From positions 1-64,000 of the forward strand of contig JAJPHV010000131.1 of assembly GCA_021325095.1 (NCBI GenBank): a DNA stretch of 64,000 nucleotides, in the 5' to 3' direction. Shown piece by piece: positions 5,077 to 19,063 of the stretch (position 1 is its first letter; each line of letters begins with the position of its first letter). Under the pieces are notes generated by a model. The model was not told the DNA's origin. It did no database searches and worked only from the letters and a program-made list of their open reading frames with translations. The stretch is from Chloroflexota bacterium (GTDB taxonomy: Bacteria; Chloroflexota; Anaerolineae; Aggregatilineales; UBA2796). A program made the translations under genes and the position numbers.

Positions 5077-6168
5077 ATGCCTCGAATTCTCGTCATTGAG
5101 GATGAGCCGACCATCCTGGAAAACATTCTACAAACGCTGGAACTGGAGCACTTCGAAGTCAGGGGCGCGCCCAACGGCTTGATCGGTATTCAATTAGCCA
5201 GGGAACATTCGCCCGATCTGGTCATCTGCGACATTATGATGCCGGAAATGGACGGCTATGAGGTGCTGGCCGAATTGCGCAATGATCCACGAACGGCGCT
5301 GGTTCCCGTGATTTTCCTGACGGCCAGGGCCAGCCGGGCTGACTTGCGGCGTGGGATGAACCTGGGCGCGGATGATTACGTGACCAAGCCATTCACCGTC
5401 CCCGAACTGCTTGAGGCGATCCGTGCGCGGCTGGAAAAGCGGAGAGCGATTGAGAGCGAAGTTCAGAAGCTGCTGGACGAGCTTCGCCACAACATTGTGT
5501 CCTCTATTCCGCATGAGTTCCGCACGCCGCTGTCTAATGTCATGGGCTATGCCTCGATTCTTATCGACGAGCATCGTTCCATCACCGCCGACGAAATCCT
5601 TCATATTGCCCAGCGGATTCAGGGCGCAGCAGCGCGTCTGTACCGTCTGGTCGAGAACTACCTGATCTACGCACAAATTGAGCTGGCTGCGGCAGATCCC
5701 AGGCGCTTAAGTGTCCTTCAAAGCAACCGGCTCAACGATCCGGGGAAATTGATCAGCGTCGTTGCGTCGCACAAGGCACATGAAGCACAGCGTAGTGCAG
5801 ATATGACTATTGAGGTGGTGGATGCGCCTGTTTGTATTTCAGAAAGCAATTTCATGAAGCTGGCCGAAGAACTCCTGGATAATGCGTTGAAATTTTCAAA
5901 ACCCGGTGACGCTGTGGAGGTACACACAGAACTGGACGATGGCAGATACATCCTGCACATCAAGAATCAAGGACGTAGCATGACCGAGCAGCAAATTGCG
6001 GAGGTCGGGGCCTACATGCAGTTCGAGCGCAAACTTTACGAGCAGCAGGGCGTCGGCCTGGGATTGATCATTGCCAAGCGACTGGCGGAACTGCATGGCG
6101 GCGGGCTAAAGATCGAAAGCCAGCCGCCGCAGGGAACGTCTGTTCGCGTCTGGCTACGCAGGGCATAG
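5077..6168 (+). CDS. Receiver-histidine kinase hybrid (N-terminal REC, HisKA, HATPase)
   Basis: A 363-residue soluble signalling protein. REC domain 1-120 with phospho-acceptor Asp52 (CDIMMPEMDG), Thr82 and Lys104 (VTKPF). HisKA about 125-200 with His146 in PHEFRTP. HATPase about 250-363 with Asn269 (EELLDNALKF), a degenerate G1 (NQGR) and a G2 box GVGLGL. The order REC-then-kinase with no membrane segment is that of response-regulator-fused kinases fed by another kinase. No separate output regulator lies next to it. The ATG at 5077 has GGAGAG six bases upstream, inside a small hairpin. Confidence 0.93.
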   Translation: MPRILVIEDEPTILENILQTLELEHFEVRGAPNGLIGIQLAREHSPDLVICDIMMPEMDGYEVLAELRNDPRTALVPVIFLTARASRADLRRGMNLGADDYVTKPFTVPELLEAIRARLEKRRAIESEVQKLLDELRHNIVSSIPHEFRTPLSNVMGYASILIDEHRSITADEILHIAQRIQGAAARLYRLVENYLIYAQIELAAADPRRLSVLQSNRLNDPGKLISVVASHKAHEAQRSADMTIEVVDAPVCISESNFMKLAEELLDNALKFSKPGDAVEVHTELDDGRYILHIKNQGRSMTEQQIAEVGAYMQFERKLYEQQGVGLGLIIAKRLAELHGGGLKIESQPPQGTSVRVWLRRA

Positions 6169-6217
6169 CTTACCGGATGAGTCTGCTTGTGCAGTTGCAC
6201 AAAGCCCGGTGAGGGGG

Positions 6218-6247
6218 TTGACTTCCACCAGGCTTTCGTGCTAATCT
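6218..6247 (+). promoter_or_regulatory. Promoter of the aromatic operon leader
   Basis: TTGACT (6218-6223), 18-base spacer, TAATCT (6242-6247). Transcription would begin near 6254, just ahead of the leader peptide ATG at 6278, as expected of an attenuator promoter. Confidence 0.65.
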
Positions 6248-6277
6248 CTCGACAACTCTACCCTGTGGGAATTCGTC

Positions 6278-6415
6278 ATGTTATCCGGTCAGCCCGTAGC
6301 GTCCAGAGCCGTTAAACAGCCAGCTTGTGTTGGCTTTTATGGTTTTGCGTACTACTTCTACTTTAAGGGCCATAGCACCTTAGAGCGGGCACTGCCTGGC
6401 AGCCGGAAGACCTGA
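6278..6415 (+). CDS. Phe/Tyr-rich leader peptide of the aromatic operon attenuator
   Basis: A 45-codon ORF, ATG 6278 to TGA 6415. Codons 20-29 (6335-6364) read F-Y-G-F-A-Y-Y-F-Y-F: eight aromatic codons in ten, four Phe and four Tyr. It lies between a good promoter (6218) and an intrinsic terminator (6438-6472), directly upstream of aroH-aroF-tyrA-aroE. This is the classic layout of ribosome-mediated attenuation: shortage of charged tRNA-Phe or tRNA-Tyr stalls the ribosome and prevents termination. The ribosome binding site is weak (GGGA at 6267-6270). The peptide itself needs no function. The codon run and terminator are seen; the mechanism is inferred from known pheA/trp-type leaders. Confidence 0.85.
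   Translation: MLSGQPVASRAVKQPACVGFYGFAYYFYFKGHSTLERALPGSRKT
6361..6388 (+). promoter_or_regulatory. Candidate attenuator RNA strands 1 and 2
   Basis: CTTTAAGG (6361-6368) can pair with CCTTAGAG (6378-6385) in an eight-pair stem (one G-U) with a nine-base loop. Strand 1 begins inside the last aromatic codons, so a ribosome stalled there would cover it. The freed strand contains GAGCGG (6383-6388), complementary to CCGCTC (6452-6457) in the loop and 3' arm of the downstream terminator. This gives a possible antiterminator. Folding energy was not computed. Confidence 0.45.
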
Positions 6416-6437
6416 CGCGAGACCAAAGGCAATCCAG

Positions 6438-6472
6438 AAGGCGCAGAGCAACCGCTCAGCGCCTTTTTTTTT
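6438..6472 (+). terminator. Intrinsic terminator acting as attenuator ahead of aroH
   Basis: Stem GGCGCAGAGC (6440-6449), loop AACC, GCTCAGCGCC (6454-6463), one A-A mismatch, extended by two A-T pairs, followed by nine T residues (6464-6472). It lies between the leader peptide stop and the aroH start at 6528, so it would block the whole aromatic operon unless relieved. Confidence 0.88.
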
Positions 6473-6527
6473 GCGCAGCGCAGTACGTAGTGTGTTTCGA
6501 ACCTCGGAACGGCAGGAGGAGAAGCTA

Positions 6528-6962
6528 GTGAATGACAATGGTTCCCACCCAATGATGTGTCGAGGCATCCGAGGCGCGACGACAGTCGACGAGAATACCA
6601 GGGAGGCGATACTGGAAGCGACGCACGAACTGTTGACCCGGTTGATAGAGGCCAATGACCTCAAGCCCGAGGACATCGCCAGCGTCATCTTTTCAACCAC
6701 GCCGGATTTGAACGCGGAATACCCGGCGCTGGCGGCACGCCAGATGGGCTGGCACGATACGGCCTTGATGTGCAGTCATGAGATGGCTGTGCCCCATGGC
6801 CTGAAAATGTGCCTGCGCGTTCTGATCCATTGGAACACGACCCGGCGTCTCGACGAAATACAGCACGTGTATATACGGGGCGCAGTCAACCTGCGCCCTG
6901 ATCGAACGATCCAGTTTAGTCAGTTTAAGCCTGCGCAGATGCGGGAGGAGCAAGGATCATGA
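6528..6962 (+). CDS. aroH: Chorismate mutase, AroH class
   Basis: Converts chorismate to prephenate, the branch step towards Phe and Tyr. The 144-residue protein contains [20 protein letters not shown]-like [12 protein letters not shown] and [13 protein letters not shown], the AroH signatures of the B. subtilis-type trimeric enzyme; active-site Arg lies in GIRGATTV and Arg in CLRVL. The GTG at 6528 is preferred because AGGAGGAG sits eight bases upstream. The family normally begins close to the later MMCRGIRG (6552), which is a possible alternative start. It is the first structural gene after the attenuator, and its stop overlaps the aroF start by four bases (ATGA). Confidence 0.93.
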
Positions 6963-7975
6963 TCGTCATTATGCAAGTCGGCGCTACGACGCAACAGATT
7001 GAGGCAGTAGTCGCAAGGATTAAAGAAATGGGCCTCACACCACATGTCAGCGAAGGCCAGGAACGCACCATCATCGGCCTGGTGGGTGATGATCGCCAGG
7101 AGGCAGACCGGGACAGCTTGAGCCTGATGGAAGGAGTCGAGCGCACCATGCGTGTGTCGCACCCGTACAAGATTGCCAGCCGCGAATTTCATCCTACCGA
7201 TACGCTGGTCCCGCTGAACGGTTTGAAGGTGGGTGACAAGAAACTGGTCCTGATCGCCGGGCCGTGTTCTGTCGAAAGCCGCGAGCAGTTGATGGAAACG
7301 GCCCAGGCCGTCAAGGAAGCAGGTGCAACCGCCCTGCGTGGCGGCGCGTTCAAACCTCGCACCTCGCCCTATTCGTTCCAGGGATTGGGCGAGAAAGGGC
7401 TGGAACTGCTGGCCGAGGCGCGCGAGGCGACGGGCCTGCCCGTCGTCACCGAAGTGATGGAGCCGGGATTGGTTCCGCTGGTCGCCAAATACGCCGACGT
7501 GCTACAGATTGGTGCGCGCAACATGCAGAACTACGCGCTGCTGCACGCGGCTGGTGCATCGCAGCACACGGTGCTCCTCAAGCGCGGCATGATGAGCACC
7601 ATGGAAGAACTGCTCATGGCGGCGGAGTACATCCTGTCACACGGCAATCACCGGGTCATGCTCTGTGAGCGCGGCATTCGCACCTTCGAGACCTACACTC
7701 GCAACACGTTCGACATCAACGCCATCCCGGTGCTCAAACAGCGCACCCACCTACCGGTCATTGCCGATCCGAGCCACGCCACAGGGCGTTGGGAATACGT
7801 TGGGGCGGCGGCCAAGGCGGCCATTGCGGCGGGCGCAGATGGCTTGATCATGGAAGTGCACTGCAGCCCGGAAAAGGCACTCTCCGACGGCGCGCAGTCG
7901 CTCCGCCCGGACAAGTTCGCCAGGTTGGTCAAGGAAATGCGGCGCGTGGCCGAGGCGGTAGACCGCACGATATAG
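6959..7975 (+). CDS. aroF: 3-deoxy-7-phosphoheptulonate (DAHP) synthase
   Basis: First enzyme of the shikimate pathway: condenses phosphoenolpyruvate with erythrose 4-phosphate. The 338-residue protein has an N-terminal ferredoxin/ACT-like regulatory domain (about 1-70), as in the Thermotoga-type DAHP synthases, then the barrel with [50 protein letters not shown] and ADPSHATG. The metal ligands Cys, His, Glu and Asp are in the expected motifs. It is translationally coupled to aroH through an ATGA overlap. The regulatory domain predicts feedback control by an aromatic amino acid, on top of the transcriptional attenuator. Confidence 0.96.
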
Positions 7976-8077: not shown

Positions 8078-8114
8078 CTCTGGCCGCGTGATTGGCCGCA
8101 GAGGAGGGTGCAAG

Positions 8115-8426
8115 ATGAACGACAAAGCGTCTGAACTGAAAGCGCTGCAACAGATTCCGGGCGTTGGCAAGCGCATTGCTGGTGATCTGTGGAACCTCGG
8201 CATCCATGCGGTGGGCGATCTGAAAGGGCGCAACCCCGACGATTTGTACAACGCCTTATGCAGCCAGATGGGCGTCAAGGTAGATCGCTGCATGTTGTAC
8301 GTGTTGCGCTGTGCCGTATATTATGCATCCAGCGTGCAGCACGATCCTGAACTGCTACAATGGTGGAACTGGAAGGATCGCGCTGAACAACCTGCGCAGG
8401 CTGCGCCCATCGCCAGCAGCGCCTAG
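8115..8426 (+). CDS. Helix-hairpin-helix protein, Cdd1 ('pathogenicity locus') type
   Basis: A 103-residue protein. LKALQQIPGVGKRIAGDLWNL is a helix-hairpin-helix with the GVGKRIA hairpin, a DNA-binding element. The following LGIHAVGDLKGRNPDDLYNAL and CMLYVLRCAVYYAS match the small Cdd1 family, often found as single-gene proteins. The ATG at 8115 is preceded by AGAGGAGGG. It is the only gene of the first block with no evident link to aromatic synthesis. Biochemical role is unknown; nucleic acid binding is inferred from the HhH. Confidence 0.75.
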   Translation: MNDKASELKALQQIPGVGKRIAGDLWNLGIHAVGDLKGRNPDDLYNALCSQMGVKVDRCMLYVLRCAVYYASSVQHDPELLQWWNWKDRAEQPAQAAPIASSA

Positions 8427-8472
8427 CCAGCCGGGGACGAGGCTGCCTCGGCTGAGGACAATGAGAGCGTCT

Positions 8473-9348
8473 ATGAAAACACTCAGCCAGGCGGAATTTA
8501 CCATCATCGGCACAGGGCTGATGGGTACGTCGCTCGCACTGGCCCTGCGTGGCAAAGTGGGCAAACTGCGCGGCGTCGATACCAACCCAGCCAACCGTTA
8601 CGCCGCCGCCGTCTACTTCGACGAAATGGGCGACGACCTGCAATCCGCCCTTGTCCCGGCGGACGTGGTGATCCTGGCAACACCTATCAAAGCTACACTC
8701 GGCTTGCTGGCAAGAGTCGGAGCGATGGTCAGGTCGGGCACGCTGATCATTGACCTGGGGAGCGCCAAGCAGCAGATCGTTCAGGCGATGGATACGCTGC
8801 CCGGCTCCGTGCTGGCGGTGGGTGGACATCCCATGTGCGGCAAGGAGCAAAGCGGCCCCACGGTTGCCGACGGGACGTTGTATCATGGCTGCGTTTTTGT
8901 GTTGTGCCCGTCGCAGCGTACCACGCCGGAGGCGCTCGACTTTGCCAGAGCCATGATCCGGGCAATTGGGGCGCGGGCCATCGTCATGCCCGCAGACCGC
9001 CACGACACAGCGGTAGCCGCCATCAGCCACTTGCCCTATTTGTTGAGCATCGGGTTGGTTGCGGCAGTACAGAACGTCGCCCAGAACGACCCGATGCCCT
9101 GGAAGCTGGCGTCCAGTGGATTCCGTGACACGTCCCGGCTGGCGGGCAGCGACATCACCATGATGGGCGACACACTGCTCACCAACCGCGAAGCTGTGCT
9201 GGACGCGCTGCGCGTGTTCCGCACGCAGCTGGACATCCTCGAATCGATCTTGCAGATGGCGGACGAACAGGCATTACGCGGTATACTCGACAGCGCGCGA
9301 CAGGCCCGGCTGGAATGGCCTCAGAAACGGGATAGTGCCCAGGAGTAA
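8473..9348 (+). CDS. tyrA: Prephenate dehydrogenase
   Basis: Oxidatively decarboxylates prephenate to 4-hydroxyphenylpyruvate for tyrosine. The 291-residue protein opens with a Rossmann fold, IIGTGLMGTSLALAL, followed by an Asp (VDTNP) that favours NAD. HPMCGKEQSGP is the conserved substrate motif, and HDTAVAAISHLPYLL carries the second His-rich signature. No C-terminal ACT domain is present. The start is chosen at 8473 because the fold begins immediately; an in-frame ATG at 8461 is possible. The end overlaps the preceding in-frame extension of aroE, whose chosen start follows four bases later. Confidence 0.93.
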   Translation: MKTLSQAEFTIIGTGLMGTSLALALRGKVGKLRGVDTNPANRYAAAVYFDEMGDDLQSALVPADVVILATPIKATLGLLARVGAMVRSGTLIIDLGSAKQQIVQAMDTLPGSVLAVGGHPMCGKEQSGPTVADGTLYHGCVFVLCPSQRTTPEALDFARAMIRAIGARAIVMPADRHDTAVAAISHLPYLLSIGLVAAVQNVAQNDPMPWKLASSGFRDTSRLAGSDITMMGDTLLTNREAVLDALRVFRTQLDILESILQMADEQALRGILDSARQARLEWPQKRDSAQE

Positions 9349-9352
9349 ACCC

Positions 9353-10225
9353 GTGAGTATTGATGGACAGACGCAACTGGTCGGCGTGATCGGCTGGCCG
9401 GTGGCGCACTCACTTTCGCCTGCCATGCACAACGCCGCGTTTACCTATGCCGGGCTGAACTGGCGCTATGTGCCGCTCCCTGTACGTTCCGGCGACCTGG
9501 CAACGGCAATTAAGGGGCTGCCTGCGCTTGGGTTCCGGGGTGTCAACATCACTGTGCCGCACAAAGTAGACGTAATACCCCTGCTAGACAGTCTGACCGA
9601 AGCGGTCAGCATCGTCGGTGCGGTGAACACGATCCGCATTGACCGCAATACCGGCCACCTCGAAGGGCTGAACACGGATATGACGGGCTTCCTGGCCGAC
9701 ATTGCAGCCAACAACATTCGTGTCAACAAAGTCAGCCGCGTGCTGATCCTGGGGGCGGGCGGCGCCTCGCGGGCGGTGGCAGCCGGCCTGGTGCGCTCCG
9801 GTGCGCATGTCATCATCTGCAATCGAACGCTGTCCAAAGCACAAGCCATTGTCAAGTTCATGCAGTCGAGCTGGGCGCATCCCAACATCGAAGCAGCTTC
9901 GCTGGACGATCTGCCGCACGTCACCAGGGGGGTCACGCTTATCGTCAATACCACACCGGTGGGGATGTGGCCGGACGTAGACAGTACGCCCTGGCCGGAA
10001 GGTGTACCCTTCCCGTCCGGTGCAGTGTTGTATGAGACGGTTTACCGCCCGCCGAAAACCCGCCTGATGCGCGATGCTGAGAAAGCCGGACTGCGCGCTG
10101 TTGGTGGGATCGGAATGCTGGTCTACCAGGGGGCTGCTGCCTTTGAAGTCTGGACAGGCCGCAAAGCTCCGGTGGATGTAATGAAGATGATCTGTGAGCA
10201 GGAGCTTAAGGAAAACGAGAACTGA
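9353..10225 (+). CDS. aroE: Shikimate dehydrogenase
   Basis: Reduces 3-dehydroshikimate to shikimate with NADPH. In 290 residues: substrate motif GWPVAHSLSPAMHN, VNITVPHK with the catalytic Lys, GLNTDMTGF with the partner Asp, cofactor loop GAGGASRA, NRTLSKA, and C-terminal NTTPVGM and ETVYRPPKTRLM. Start GTG 9353 is chosen because AGGAG (9341-9345) lies seven bases upstream; a GTG at 9335 lacks that spacing. It ends only seven bases from the converging DUF5667 gene, leaving no room for a separate terminator, so transcripts from the two strands probably overlap. Confidence 0.95.
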   Translation: MSIDGQTQLVGVIGWPVAHSLSPAMHNAAFTYAGLNWRYVPLPVRSGDLATAIKGLPALGFRGVNITVPHKVDVIPLLDSLTEAVSIVGAVNTIRIDRNTGHLEGLNTDMTGFLADIAANNIRVNKVSRVLILGAGGASRAVAAGLVRSGAHVIICNRTLSKAQAIVKFMQSSWAHPNIEAASLDDLPHVTRGVTLIVNTTPVGMWPDVDSTPWPEGVPFPSGAVLYETVYRPPKTRLMRDAEKAGLRAVGGIGMLVYQGAAAFEVWTGRKAPVDVMKMICEQELKENEN

Positions 10226-14224: not shown

Positions 14225-15410
14225 ATTGACCTTCAAACATAACCTTGAGCGGGGTAGACACGGCTGGCTGCGCCTCACGCCTGCTTATTCTGTAAAAATT
14301 GTTCATGAAATCCTGGATGAACATCCAGAAACCAACTATGTGCTTGACCCATTTTCGGGCACAGGAACGACGGGTCTGGTTTGTGGCGAACGCGGTCTGC
14401 AATGTGATCTACTAGATATTAATCCATTTTTAGTGTGGCTTGCCCACGTTAAGACTGCCAACTACGGGTCAGATCAGTTGCAGGAAGTTCAAAACAGCAT
14501 TCCAGCAATTGTTGCAGAAGTTCGCGGGGAATACGCCGACTTATGGTGGCCCCCGATCAACGACATCGAGCGGTGGTGGGCAAGCGATGTGCGCAATCTT
14601 CTTGCGCGCCTGTACAGAAGTATCAATAACACTTGTCCTCAAGAGAGCGCCGCCAAGGACCTGCTATTGATTGCTTTTTGTAGATGCCTCATCAACTGGT
14701 CAAATGCAGCATTTAACCATCAATCCGTGTCGTTCAAGCCACAGCAGGCAACGCTTTTCAGCGATGTCCAGGATGAGATTCTTTTAGGCGAGTTCGCGGC
14801 GACCGCTGCAATAGTGCTGGGGGCGGCACGGCAGAGTGTAAAGGGCCGCGTAAGCGTCTTTCAAGCTGACGCGCGACAAATCCCTGAGAATTCTTTGGCT
14901 GAGTATGATTGCGTAATTACTTCGCCGCCATACCCTAATCGCATGAGTTATATTCGTGAACTTCGGCCTTATATGTACTGGCTAAAATATCTAAGTGATG
15001 GGCGCGAAGCAGGCGAACTGGATTGGCAAGCTATCGGCGGGACGTGGGGCATCGCCACTAGCCGGATTGCCAAATGGCGACCTGGCGGAACTGAAATCCC
15101 TTTTGCCGGGTTTGAGAACATCGTAGAGGCAATTGCCAGCAAGAGCCAACTTCTTGGCAATTATGTTCACAAGTATTTTGCCGATGTACTTTCGCATATC
15201 ACGTCCCTGTTTCCTCGGATAATTTCCGGGGGAAAAGTCTTTTATATCATCGGGAATTCAAAATTCTATCAAACACTCGTTCCCGTTGAGGAAATCTACG
15301 CGGAAATTCTGCGCAGTGCCGGGTTTGTGAATCCAGCCATTAAGTGCATCCGAAAGCGCAATTCCAAAAAGGAACTCTACGAATTTATTGTCTCTGCGCA
15401 GAAACCATGA
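14208..15410 (+). CDS. Site-specific DNA methyltransferase (N4-cytosine/N6-adenine type)
   Basis: A 400-residue SAM-dependent methyltransferase. Motif I is LDPFSGTGTTG (about 46-56). The catalytic motif IV is TSPPYPNRMSY (Ser239-Pro-Pro-Tyr242); SPPY is common in N4-cytosine enzymes, though N6-adenine cannot be excluded. The long region between them probably holds target recognition. The start at 14208 (MKTKPELTF) overlaps the putative endonuclease gene by 17 bases, implying coupling. It ends 16 bases before aroC. Low GC and irregular codon use compared with aroC suggest acquisition as a mobile restriction-modification unit. Confidence 0.88.
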   Translation: MKTKPELTFKHNLERGRHGWLRLTPAYSVKIVHEILDEHPETNYVLDPFSGTGTTGLVCGERGLQCDLLDINPFLVWLAHVKTANYGSDQLQEVQNSIPAIVAEVRGEYADLWWPPINDIERWWASDVRNLLARLYRSINNTCPQESAAKDLLLIAFCRCLINWSNAAFNHQSVSFKPQQATLFSDVQDEILLGEFAATAAIVLGAARQSVKGRVSVFQADARQIPENSLAEYDCVITSPPYPNRMSYIRELRPYMYWLKYLSDGREAGELDWQAIGGTWGIATSRIAKWRPGGTEIPFAGFENIVEAIASKSQLLGNYVHKYFADVLSHITSLFPRIISGGKVFYIIGNSKFYQTLVPVEEIYAEILRSAGFVNPAIKCIRKRNSKKELYEFIVSAQKP

Positions 15411-15426
15411 ACTGAAGGAGCCGCCC

Positions 15427-16611
15427 ATGCTGCGTTTTCTAACCGCCGGTGAGTCGCACGGCCCACTGCTGACGGGTATCCTGGAAGGGATGCCTGCCGG
15501 CGTGCCGCTGACGGCTGCCGACATTGATGCCGACCTCGCCCGCCGCCAGCAGGGCTACGGCAAGGGCGGGCGCATGGCTATCGAGAAGGATCACGTCCGG
15601 TTCGCGGCGGGCGTTGTGGCCGGGCAGACGACAGGCGCGCCGATTGCGCTGCTGGTCGAGAACCGTGACTACAAGAACTGGGCCGACAAGCTGATTGACC
15701 CCATGACCACTCCGCGCCCCGGCCACGCCGACCTGACCGGGGCAGTCAAGTACGGCTACCGCGAACTGCGTCTGAGCCTGGAACGGGCCAGCGCCCGTGA
15801 AACGACCATGCGCGTGGCAGTGGGCGCGGTCTGCAAACGCCTGCTGGCCGAGTTCGGCATCCGCGTGCAGGGGTACGTCACGGCCATTGGCGACGTATCC
15901 GCCGACCTGCCGCCTGTCGATGCTGCTCAATACCCGGCGCGCTTCGACGCAGCGGAAGCCAACGACGTGCGCTGCCCCGATCCCGCCGCTGCGGAACGGA
16001 TGCACGACGCCATCCGTGCCATAATCCAGGCCAAAGACACCCTCGGCGGCATCATCGAAGTGGCGGCGCTCGGCGTGCCGCCCGGCCTGGGATCGCACGT
16101 CCACTATGATCGCAAACTCGACGGGCAGTTGATGGGCGCGGTGGGCAGCATCCCGGCGGTGAAAGGCGTCGAGATCGGCCACGCCTTTGAGCAGGCGAGC
16201 TGGCCCGGCACGAAAGTCCACGACGAACTGTTTGCCGAAAACGGCGAACTGCGCCGCCGCAGCAACCGGGCGGGCGGATTGGAGGGCGGGATCACGACGG
16301 GCGAACCGGTCATCGTGCGCGCTGCCGTCAAGCCGATTGCCACGACGCTGAATCCGCTGCAATCGGTTGACCTGGCCTCCGGTGAGCCGAAGGCCACCGA
16401 CTACGAGCGCAGCGATTTCTGCCCTGTGCCGCGCGGCGTGCCGATTGTCGAGGCGATGGTCGCCATCGTGCTGGCGAACGCGCTGATCGAGAAGCTCGGC
16501 GGCGACTCGCTGGACGAAATGCGCCCACGTTTCGCCGCGCTGCGCCGCAACCGTCTGGAAGACTTGCCGATGGATAACCGGCCCTGGCAGTTCAACTATG
16601 AGTATTCCTGA
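15427..16611 (+). CDS. aroC: Chorismate synthase
   Basis: Last common step: 5-enolpyruvylshikimate 3-phosphate to chorismate, using reduced FMN. The 394-residue protein begins LRFLTAGESHGP, has RRQQGYGKGGRM, HADLTGAVKYGY, RASARETTMRVA with the flavin/substrate binding Arg-rich signature, and DFCPVPRGVP at the C-terminus. The ATG at 15427 has AGGAG eight bases before it. It sits directly after the methyltransferase gene and overlaps aroK by 14 bases. No own promoter is evident, so its block may be read from the restriction-modification transcript or from a promoter hidden in that coding region. Confidence 0.96.
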   Translation: MLRFLTAGESHGPLLTGILEGMPAGVPLTAADIDADLARRQQGYGKGGRMAIEKDHVRFAAGVVAGQTTGAPIALLVENRDYKNWADKLIDPMTTPRPGHADLTGAVKYGYRELRLSLERASARETTMRVAVGAVCKRLLAEFGIRVQGYVTAIGDVSADLPPVDAAQYPARFDAAEANDVRCPDPAAAERMHDAIRAIIQAKDTLGGIIEVAALGVPPGLGSHVHYDRKLDGQLMGAVGSIPAVKGVEIGHAFEQASWPGTKVHDELFAENGELRRRSNRAGGLEGGITTGEPVIVRAAVKPIATTLNPLQSVDLASGEPKATDYERSDFCPVPRGVPIVEAMVAIVLANALIEKLGGDSLDEMRPRFAALRRNRLEDLPMDNRPWQFNYEYS

Positions 16612-17125: not shown

Positions 17126-18002
17126 ACGGGTCGCCAACCTGATTGCGCAGCAGTGGCCGGGCACACAGATTGAACTGCCCAATCCGCTGTATGAATACGA
17201 GGTGCGGCGGGTCGGGACGCCGGCGCCAGGCAAATATCGCGTGCCGTTCGTTTTTAGTCTATTCTTGCTGGTGGGCATGGGCTATGGATTCGGCACAGGC
17301 AGCCGGAGTGATATACCGGGCGCTTTGCTGGTCGGGGGCAGCCTGATCCTGTCCCTCGTCTGCGACCTGAACTACCTGGCCCAGACGGTGACCAGCATCG
17401 GCCACCAGATCGAGTCCGGGCAGTGGGACATGCTGCGCCTGACCACGCTGCGCCGGCACGACATCGTGACGGCGAAATTTGCCGTCGCCCAGATACGCAC
17501 CTGGCGCTGGATGGCTGCTGACGTGGCGCTGCGGCTGGGCGGCGCAGCCTTCGCGTTGGGTCTGATTCTGTTCTGGGTCTTCCCTCCCGTGAAGGAGTTC
17601 TATCTGCCCCGGAGCGTACCCGTCGTCCTGGCCTTTTTTGCGATCTTTGTGGCCGTCTACGTGCTCGAACCGCTGTGGCGGATGCGCGCCATCGTGGCGT
17701 TGGGCATGGCCGTGTCGGCCCGTATCCACCATTCGGCCTTCGCGCTGCTGGCCGGGTTCGGTCTGCTGTTGGGACTGCGCATCGTGCAGGCCATCATTGT
17801 GCTGATGATTGGCTCTGTCGCGCTGCCCATGATCTTTTATTTCTCCCGCTGGTATATCGTGCCGCGCAGCCTTGATCTGATGGATTTGCTCGCGTATTTT
17901 CTGGTGTGCCTGTTGAGCGCCGGAGCCGTGTATGCGTTCTACAATATTGTGGAGCAGCAAGCACTGCGCGAGACCCTGCAATCCGCTTTTCGCGCCGAGT
18001 AA
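17112..18002 (+). CDS. Polytopic membrane protein of unknown function in the aro block
   Basis: About 296 residues from GTG 17112, chosen because GGAGG (17101-17105) is six bases upstream. The N-terminal 45 residues are cytoplasmic-like. About six to seven hydrophobic segments follow, e.g. VPFVFSLFLLVGMGYGFG, GALLVGGSLILSLVCDL, FALGLILFWVF, VVLAFFAIFVAVYVL and IVQAIIVLMIGSVALPMIF. The segment IESGQWDMLRLTTLRRHDIV resembles the cytoplasmic stretch of ABC-2-type permeases, but no ATPase gene is adjacent. Overlaps with aroK and an eight-base gap to aroB place it firmly inside the operon. A role in aromatic transport is only a guess. Confidence 0.7.
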   Translation: MLLRERVANLIAQQWPGTQIELPNPLYEYEVRRVGTPAPGKYRVPFVFSLFLLVGMGYGFGTGSRSDIPGALLVGGSLILSLVCDLNYLAQTVTSIGHQIESGQWDMLRLTTLRRHDIVTAKFAVAQIRTWRWMAADVALRLGGAAFALGLILFWVFPPVKEFYLPRSVPVVLAFFAIFVAVYVLEPLWRMRAIVALGMAVSARIHHSAFALLAGFGLLLGLRIVQAIIVLMIGSVALPMIFYFSRWYIVPRSLDLMDLLAYFLVCLLSAGAVYAFYNIVEQQALRETLQSAFRAE

Positions 18003-18010
18003 GGGCCGCT

Positions 18011-19063
18011 ATGCAACCGACTGAAATCCTGGTAACATCACCCACATCCAAGTACCCGATCCTGATCGGGGATGGTCTGTTGAAATCGCTGCCCGCACTG
18101 CTCGAAGAACGCAAGCTGACGGGCAAAGTCGCCATTGTCACCAATGAAACGTTGGCGCCGCTGTACGGCGAACCGCTCGTGCAGGCGTTGGGCGCGAAGG
18201 CCGTGCTAGTCAAGATGCCCGACGGTGAGCAGTACAAAACGCTTGACACAGTACGCGCCCTGTACGATGACTTCATCGCCGCCGGGCTGGATCGGCGTTC
18301 GGTGATCGTGGCACTGGGCGGCGGCGTGGTCGGGGACACGGTGGGTTTCGCGGCAGCGACCTACCTGCGCGGCGTGGCGCTGGTGCAGATACCGACATCG
18401 CTGCTGGCAATGGTCGATTCGAGCGTCGGCGGCAAAGTGGGCGTCGATCTGCCCCAGGGCAAGAACCTGATCGGCGCCTTCAAGCAGCCCGAAATGGTGA
18501 TCGTCGATCCTACCGTGCTGGATACGCTGCCCGATGACGAATGGCGCTGCGGCGTGGCCGAGATCGTCAAGGCGGGGCTGATCCGCGACACGGCGCTGCT
18601 CGACGCCTCGCTGTACCGGCGGGGCGCGATTGACTACATCGTGCGGGCGATTGCCTTCAAAGTCAACATCGTGCAGGAAGACCCCTACGAGGATAACATC
18701 CGCGCCTATTTGAACCTGGGCCACACCTTCGCACACGCGCTGGAGCGGGTCAGCAACTATGGCTGGAAGCATGGCGAAGCGGTGGCCGTTGGGCTGCTGG
18801 CAGCGGCCCAGCTCTCGCAGGTGCACGGCCTGTGCGATCCGTCGCTGCCTTTCCGCGTCGAACAGCTTTTGAAGACGCTCAAGCTGCCGACGCGCTACAG
18901 AGGCTACAGCGCCGCCGAACTGCGTGCGGCGATGGGCACGGACAAAAAGCGCCAGGCGAACCGGATACGCTTTGTGCTGCTGCGCGCGCCCGGCGATCCG
19001 GTGTTGGTCAGCGACGTGCCAGATAGCAAGGTGTTGAGCGTGCTTGACTCGCTGCGGGAATGA
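18011..19063 (+). CDS. aroB: 3-dehydroquinate synthase
   Basis: Second shikimate step: DAHP to 3-dehydroquinate, using NAD and a divalent metal. The 350-residue protein has ALGGGVVGDTVGFAAATYLRG (NAD loop and metal region), QIPTSLLAMVDSSVGGK, DLPQGKNLIG, and the metal-binding His in LNLGHTFAHALE and YGWKHGEAVAVG. Start 18011 follows AAGGG; the in-frame extension upstream overlaps the membrane-protein gene and is discounted. aroQ starts seven bases downstream. Confidence 0.95.
   Translation: MQPTEILVTSPTSKYPILIGDGLLKSLPALLEERKLTGKVAIVTNETLAPLYGEPLVQALGAKAVLVKMPDGEQYKTLDTVRALYDDFIAAGLDRRSVIVALGGGVVGDTVGFAAATYLRGVALVQIPTSLLAMVDSSVGGKVGVDLPQGKNLIGAFKQPEMVIVDPTVLDTLPDDEWRCGVAEIVKAGLIRDTALLDASLYRRGAIDYIVRAIAFKVNIVQEDPYEDNIRAYLNLGHTFAHALERVSNYGWKHGEAVAVGLLAAAQLSQVHGLCDPSLPFRVEQLLKTLKLPTRYRGYSAAELRAAMGTDKKRQANRIRFVLLRAPGDPVLVSDVPDSKVLSVLDSLRE

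Follow-up and report, generated by a model that had tools for sequence, protein, structure and literature searches.

The aroH locus and its leader region

The window, which is the whole stretch of DNA analysed here (64,000 nt, positions 1 to 64,000 of contig JAJPHV010000131.1, GenBank assembly GCA_021325095.1, Chloroflexota bacterium), contains a set of genes for aromatic amino acid synthesis that is preceded by a short ORF rich in Phe and Tyr codons. The features, with pairing strands named for their predicted roles, are:

6218..6247, forward strand: promoter, TTGACT (6218-6223), 18 nt, TAATCT (6242-6247); 8/12 consensus, position conserved in relatives
6278..6415, forward strand: leader ORF, 45 codons; homologous ORFs precede aroH in most relatives
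6318..6344, forward strand: strand 1, the pre-run sequence and first control codons; predicted duplex with 6376-6401 (-25.9 kcal/mol)
6335..6364, forward strand: control codons FYGFAYYFYF (4 Phe, 4 Tyr), codons 20-29; run conserved across loci
6383..6399, forward strand: strand 2, predicted antiterminator strand GAGCGGGCACTGCCTGG in the last leader codons; pairs with 6433-6457 when the run is masked
6438..6449, forward strand: strand 3, terminator 5' arm, common to the antiterminator and the terminator
6438..6472, forward strand: intrinsic terminator, stem 6438-6449/6454-6465 and T tract to 6472; compensatory changes in the homologous stem, 0/500 shuffles
6528..6962, forward strand: aroH, chorismate mutase (CM_1; Pfam PF07736, E 1e-47)
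6959..7975, forward strand: aroF, DAHP synthase with an N-terminal ferredoxin-like domain (PF00793, PF18152)
8311..9348, forward strand: tyrA, prephenate dehydrogenase (PF02153, PF20463)
9335..10225, forward strand: aroE, shikimate dehydrogenase (PF08501, PF18317)

The leader ORF extends from the ATG at 6278 to the TGA at 6413-6415 and encodes the peptide MLSGQPVASRAVKQPACVGFYGFAYYFYFKGHSTLERALPGSRKT. The terminator that follows is a 12/12 hairpin made up of the 5' arm AAGGCGCAGAGC (6438-6449), the loop AACC and the 3' arm GCTCAGCGCCTT (6454-6465), and is followed by nine T, the last at 6472. It was not listed by a simple terminator scan, probably because of one A-A mismatch within the stem. 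The promoter, which has a TG one base ahead of the -10, is weak by consensus (8/12) and was also unlisted by the simple scan. However, a promoter is found at the matching position in 72 of 79 homologous leaders, compared with 6.7 expected from shuffles, so that the presence of a promoter before the leader is established for the set rather than from the window. The energy of the fold of 6250-6475 lies far below that of shuffled sequences (z -5.6). These data bear out the preliminary description of this DNA in three respects, namely a promoter upstream of the leader ORF, 45 codons with eight aromatics in ten, and a strong intrinsic terminator between the ORF and aroH.

The aroH start is a GTG at 6528, with AGGAGG (6514-6519) 8 nt upstream. 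The gene order aroH-aroF-tyrA-aroE is present as first described, but a small ORF of the Cdd1 family (helix-hairpin-helix; 8088-8426) is inserted between aroF and tyrA, and no Cdd1-family match was found near aroH in the named Chloroflexota loci. The true start of tyrA is probably near 8480-8500. Genes for chorismate synthase (15388-16611) and 3-dehydroquinate synthase (17906-19063) lie approximately 5 kb downstream, beyond a sigma-factor gene of opposite orientation. The original suggestion that the operon is regulated as a whole needs to be narrowed, as the core conserved in relatives is aroH-aroF and not the entire four-gene string. In 57 of 59 named Chloroflexota loci aroF follows aroH, and the remaining two have little or no downstream sequence.

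A search of the window's own genome, a 6.58 Mb assembly, found the aromatic run upstream of aroH to be unique, with no second aromatic leader. The other matches in this genome with five consecutive Phe/Tyr codons are inside longer open frames and none has a terminator after it.

Conservation of the leader in Chloroflexota

The aroH gene was detected in 90 of 101 related genomes. At least seven aromatics in ten codons were found upstream of aroH in 46 of 71 loci (a set that counts the window twice, as L001 and L002), in none of the 71 reverse strands and in none of 710 shuffles. With at least six Phe, Tyr or Trp in ten codons, the run is present in 79 of 104 distinct Chloroflexota aroH loci, in two of the 104 reverse strands, and in none of the 21 aroH loci from other phyla (Planctomycetota, Desulfobacterota and others), which have no aromatic run upstream. 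On these counts, the run and ORF upstream of aroH are not due to chance. Fewer than five aromatics were found in 12 of the 104 Chloroflexota loci, which counts against the attenuator reading proposed below.

In the named set, the leader is present in Chloroflexus, Roseiflexus, Oscillochloris, Herpetosiphonaceae, Ardenticatenaceae and many Anaerolineae. Two leader peptides of the family to which the window belongs, L003 and L004, are letter-for-letter identical to L073 (Chloroflexi bacterium J076) and L072 (Anaerolineae bacterium SKYG67), which would place the window in Chloroflexota and most likely in Anaerolineae. In 40 further loci, sampled from the class and the phylum, the leader was found in the window's own class and in families whose leaders match those of the named Chloroflexus and Oscillochloris. 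Most other families lack it, and some of these have aroH behind a gene that, by the look of its residues, we take to be trpA.

The preliminary description predicted conservation of the run and terminator alongside drift elsewhere in the peptide, and the comparison over two Chloroflexota classes agrees with this. Aromatic character is kept in the run, whereas the flanks and the order of the residues drift, e.g. FYGFAYYFYF, AYFGYWFSYF, WVWFGFYFYF and VSFYFYYYF. Among the 73 non-redundant leaders with a terminator, Phe and Tyr are mixed in all but one, and 24 also include Trp.

Two variant groups were seen. One lineage (L031, L038, L043, L052, L053, L055, L057, L060 and L061) has a leader reduced to a mainly Tyr run, with the conserved ending RYYYYPNCIDRSG in most loci, and this is a possible shift in specificity from mixed aromatic to tyrosine. 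In one family from the window's class (L283-L285 and L317), the leaders resemble MLKSARWFAYFYFYGFR and contain all three aromatic amino acids, and the terminator sequence, AGAGCGAGACC, is distinct.

Leaders for other amino acids were also sought in the relatives. No leader for Trp was found at trpE, for Phe at pheS or for Leu at leuA. Short ORFs with runs of His codons (HVHAHPHHH, HHHHMHHHA, YHHHHHN), followed by intrinsic terminators, were found upstream of hisG (L194, L196, L197, L201, L204, L210, L211, L213, L214, L218, L219 and L221) and are candidate His-leader attenuators in Chloroflexota. The hisG contig of the window's own genome has no run of five His codons.

Terminator and pairing strands

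In an alignment of 13 Chloroflexia-type sequences, 5 of the 12 pairs in the terminator stem are changed on both sides and 98.7 % of cells are paired, a result not reached by any of 500 shuffles. In the window, 25 nt separate the first base of the stop codon from the start of the terminator. For the 73 non-redundant leaders the median of this distance is 29 nt and the middle half falls between 26 and 34 nt. Hence, as an attenuator demands, the terminator is far enough from the stop codon to fold beside a terminating ribosome.

An attenuator also includes an antiterminator strand complementary to the terminator 5' arm. In the Chloroflexia-type group, TTGCTTCGCGTT in the last leader codons pairs with GGCGTGGAGCAA of the terminator 5' arm. 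This 2:3 helix pairs 94.2 % of cells in the Chloroflexia alignment, and slid versions pair 38-61 %. However, covariation in this helix was no greater than in column shuffles, and a swap test was therefore used instead. Over the 73 leaders, the mean pairing energy of the post-run strand was -16.4 kcal/mol with the terminator arm of the same leader compared with -13.8 ± 0.28 kcal/mol for swapped arms, and none of 10,000 swaps was as good, although swap tests of the pairing strands retain the effect of shared ancestry. The control stretch upstream of the run gave -12.4 kcal/mol, and the own arm was better than GC- and length-matched arms in 53 of 73 leaders (Wilcoxon p 2e-6). A strand that spans the first control codons and the sequence ahead of them is also complementary to the antiterminator strand, and over the set it pairs better with its own antiterminator strand than with swapped ones. 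The hairpin immediately after the run (6361-6370 with 6375-6385) was rejected as strand 1, as the run-end strand was no better than swaps (p 0.23).

For a window transcript that ends at 6457 and has the run masked, the antiterminator, 6383-6399 with 6433-6457, is the most stable predicted fold (-24.5 kcal/mol). Once the terminator 3' arm is complete, the terminator prevails as the free-energy minimum (-33.3), and antitermination must therefore be kinetic, as is generally accepted for attenuators of this type. For the window's genome taken singly, the antiterminator duplex is unremarkable, at -11.9 kcal/mol and rank 48 of 73. Support for an antiterminator from the window itself is moderate, and on these predicted energies it is weaker evidence than the antiterminator of many relatives.

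Proposed mechanism and alternatives

The short ORF, with its clustered codons for the end products of the operon, together with the elements described above, leads us to conclude, with a probability of about 0.9, that the leader in the window is a ribosome-mediated transcription attenuator of aroH/aroF. On the best reading it would sense charged tRNA-Phe and tRNA-Tyr, and in some lineages also Trp. The preliminary description had read the Phe/Tyr run and terminator as leader-peptide attenuation, and conservation in two Chloroflexota classes supports that reading. Translation of the ORF, stalling of the ribosome and a response to Phe and Tyr are predicted from the sequence, and we infer from the codons that both amino acids would be sensed.

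Transcription would start near 6254, and a ribosome would translate the leader ORF behind the advancing RNA polymerase. With both Phe- and Tyr-tRNA charged, the ribosome would reach the stop codon at 6413 and cover strand 2 (6383-6399), so that the terminator at 6438-6472 folds and transcription halts before aroH. A shortage of either Phe- or Tyr-tRNA would instead stall the ribosome in 6335-6364, where it would cover strand 1 and free strand 2, which would pair with the emerging terminator 5' arm. The terminator would then fail, and aroH, aroF and the downstream genes would be made. If the leader is not translated, strand 1 would pair with strand 2 and the terminator would form.

The alternative that survives best is a sub-case of this attenuator and does not exclude it, namely that only one amino acid, most likely Phe, is effective and the other codons are passengers. 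There is a precedent, as the Corynebacterium glutamicum aroR leader (Phe-Tyr-Phe) answers only to Phe limitation (PMC11802643). However, Phe and Tyr codons are interspersed within a single 30-nt stretch in 72 of the 73 leaders, and one lineage retains mainly a Tyr run (RYYYYPN). The Tyr codons thus seem to be under selection, and we consider control by a single amino acid rather unlikely.

Far less probable is an arrest-peptide switch of the TnaC type, in which the nascent peptide would stall the ribosome on free Phe or Tyr and the codons would matter only via the peptide. Such a switch would likewise show a conserved short ORF that encodes an aromatic stretch, followed by an RNA switch. However, arrest peptides normally retain specific residues, whereas here the order and identity of residues drift among F, Y and W and the non-aromatic spacing varies. 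Constant aromatic content despite drifting residue order favours tRNA charging. Moreover, a biosynthetic operon would need a response of the opposite sign.

Slightly less likely still is that the same leader acts not via the intrinsic terminator but via translation of aroH (a sequestered start) or via Rho. In favour of this, some loci (e.g. L013, L074 and L084) have no terminator by the scan. However, most leaders have a GC-rich stem and T tract with compensatory changes, and in the window 55 nt separate the end of the T tract from the aroH start, with the Shine-Dalgarno AGGAGG outside the hairpin. Finally, the terminator is in an intergenic region after a same-strand gene (response regulator/kinase, ending at 6168) and might have belonged to it, with the aromatic ORF there by chance, but a promoter intervenes and the ORF, run and terminator stay together before aroH across families with differing upstream genes, and the conservation tests refute this explanation.

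A broader proposal, which we hold tentatively and at a little short of even odds, is that Chloroflexota evolved leader-peptide attenuation independently, and that the leader is an OR gate kept since the common ancestor of Anaerolineae and Chloroflexia. Scarcity of any one of Phe, Tyr or, where coded, Trp would stall the ribosome within the one 30-nt run, and the stall would open the pathway's common entry (chorismate mutase and DAHP synthase). The leader is conserved across two classes and occurs in cultured genera, among them Chloroflexus and Roseiflexus, which implies that transcription and translation are coupled in the phylum and argues for repeated origin of attenuation.

Comparison with known systems

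A scan of the window against Rfam at the gathering threshold matched no leader, T-box or riboswitch family, and relaxing the cutoff to E 10 in 6200-6560 brought up no amino-acid leader family. T-box riboswitches are known in Chloroflexi (PMC3766115) and, like the leader proposed here, sense tRNA charging before amino-acid genes. However, they bind tRNA directly and have no leader ORF, and there was no match to the T-box covariance model in the window.

The preliminary description presented the locus as attenuation outside Proteobacteria. The Chloroflexota case is supported but the phenomenon is not new, as leader-peptide attenuation is known in Actinobacteria, including the aroF leader aroR (PMC11802643), and has been proposed in Firmicutes (PMC2965389, PMC9413887). 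Before a 2010 survey added Firmicutes, the leader peptides known to it were confined to Proteobacteria and Actinobacteria (PMC2965389). A survey from 2013 proposed gamma-Proteobacteria as the place of origin of amino-acid attenuators, followed by few transfers (PMC3766115). No leader-peptide attenuator from Chloroflexi/Chloroflexota was found in the literature searched, though subscription papers (e.g. Lopatovskaya et al. 2010) may contain one. Our best reading is that the attenuator spans two Chloroflexota classes and is undescribed within that literature.

The enteric pheL-pheA, pheST and trpL leaders share the order promoter, leader ORF with control codons, RNA switch and intrinsic terminator (PMC11802643), but each reads one amino acid, and they are found in Proteobacteria before other target genes. 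The Firmicutes His leader peptides (hisS/hisZ and his operons) are likewise cases outside Proteobacteria and Actinobacteria that were found by genome comparison (PMC2965389, PMC9413887), but concern histidine and another phylum. The mixed codons of the Chloroflexota leaders permit a direct test of how several end products of a branched pathway are sensed by a single leader.

The closest known case is the aroR leader of the C. glutamicum aroF operon (Neshat et al. 2014, reviewed in PMC11802643), where a leader with Phe and Tyr codons also precedes a DAHP synthase gene and acts by ribosome-stall attenuation. By description, aroR is set apart in being from Actinobacteria, in having only Phe-Tyr-Phe and in responding to Phe and not Tyr, whereas the Chloroflexota leaders have 7-9 aromatics of ten, often with Trp, and chorismate mutase as the first gene, and belong to another phylum.
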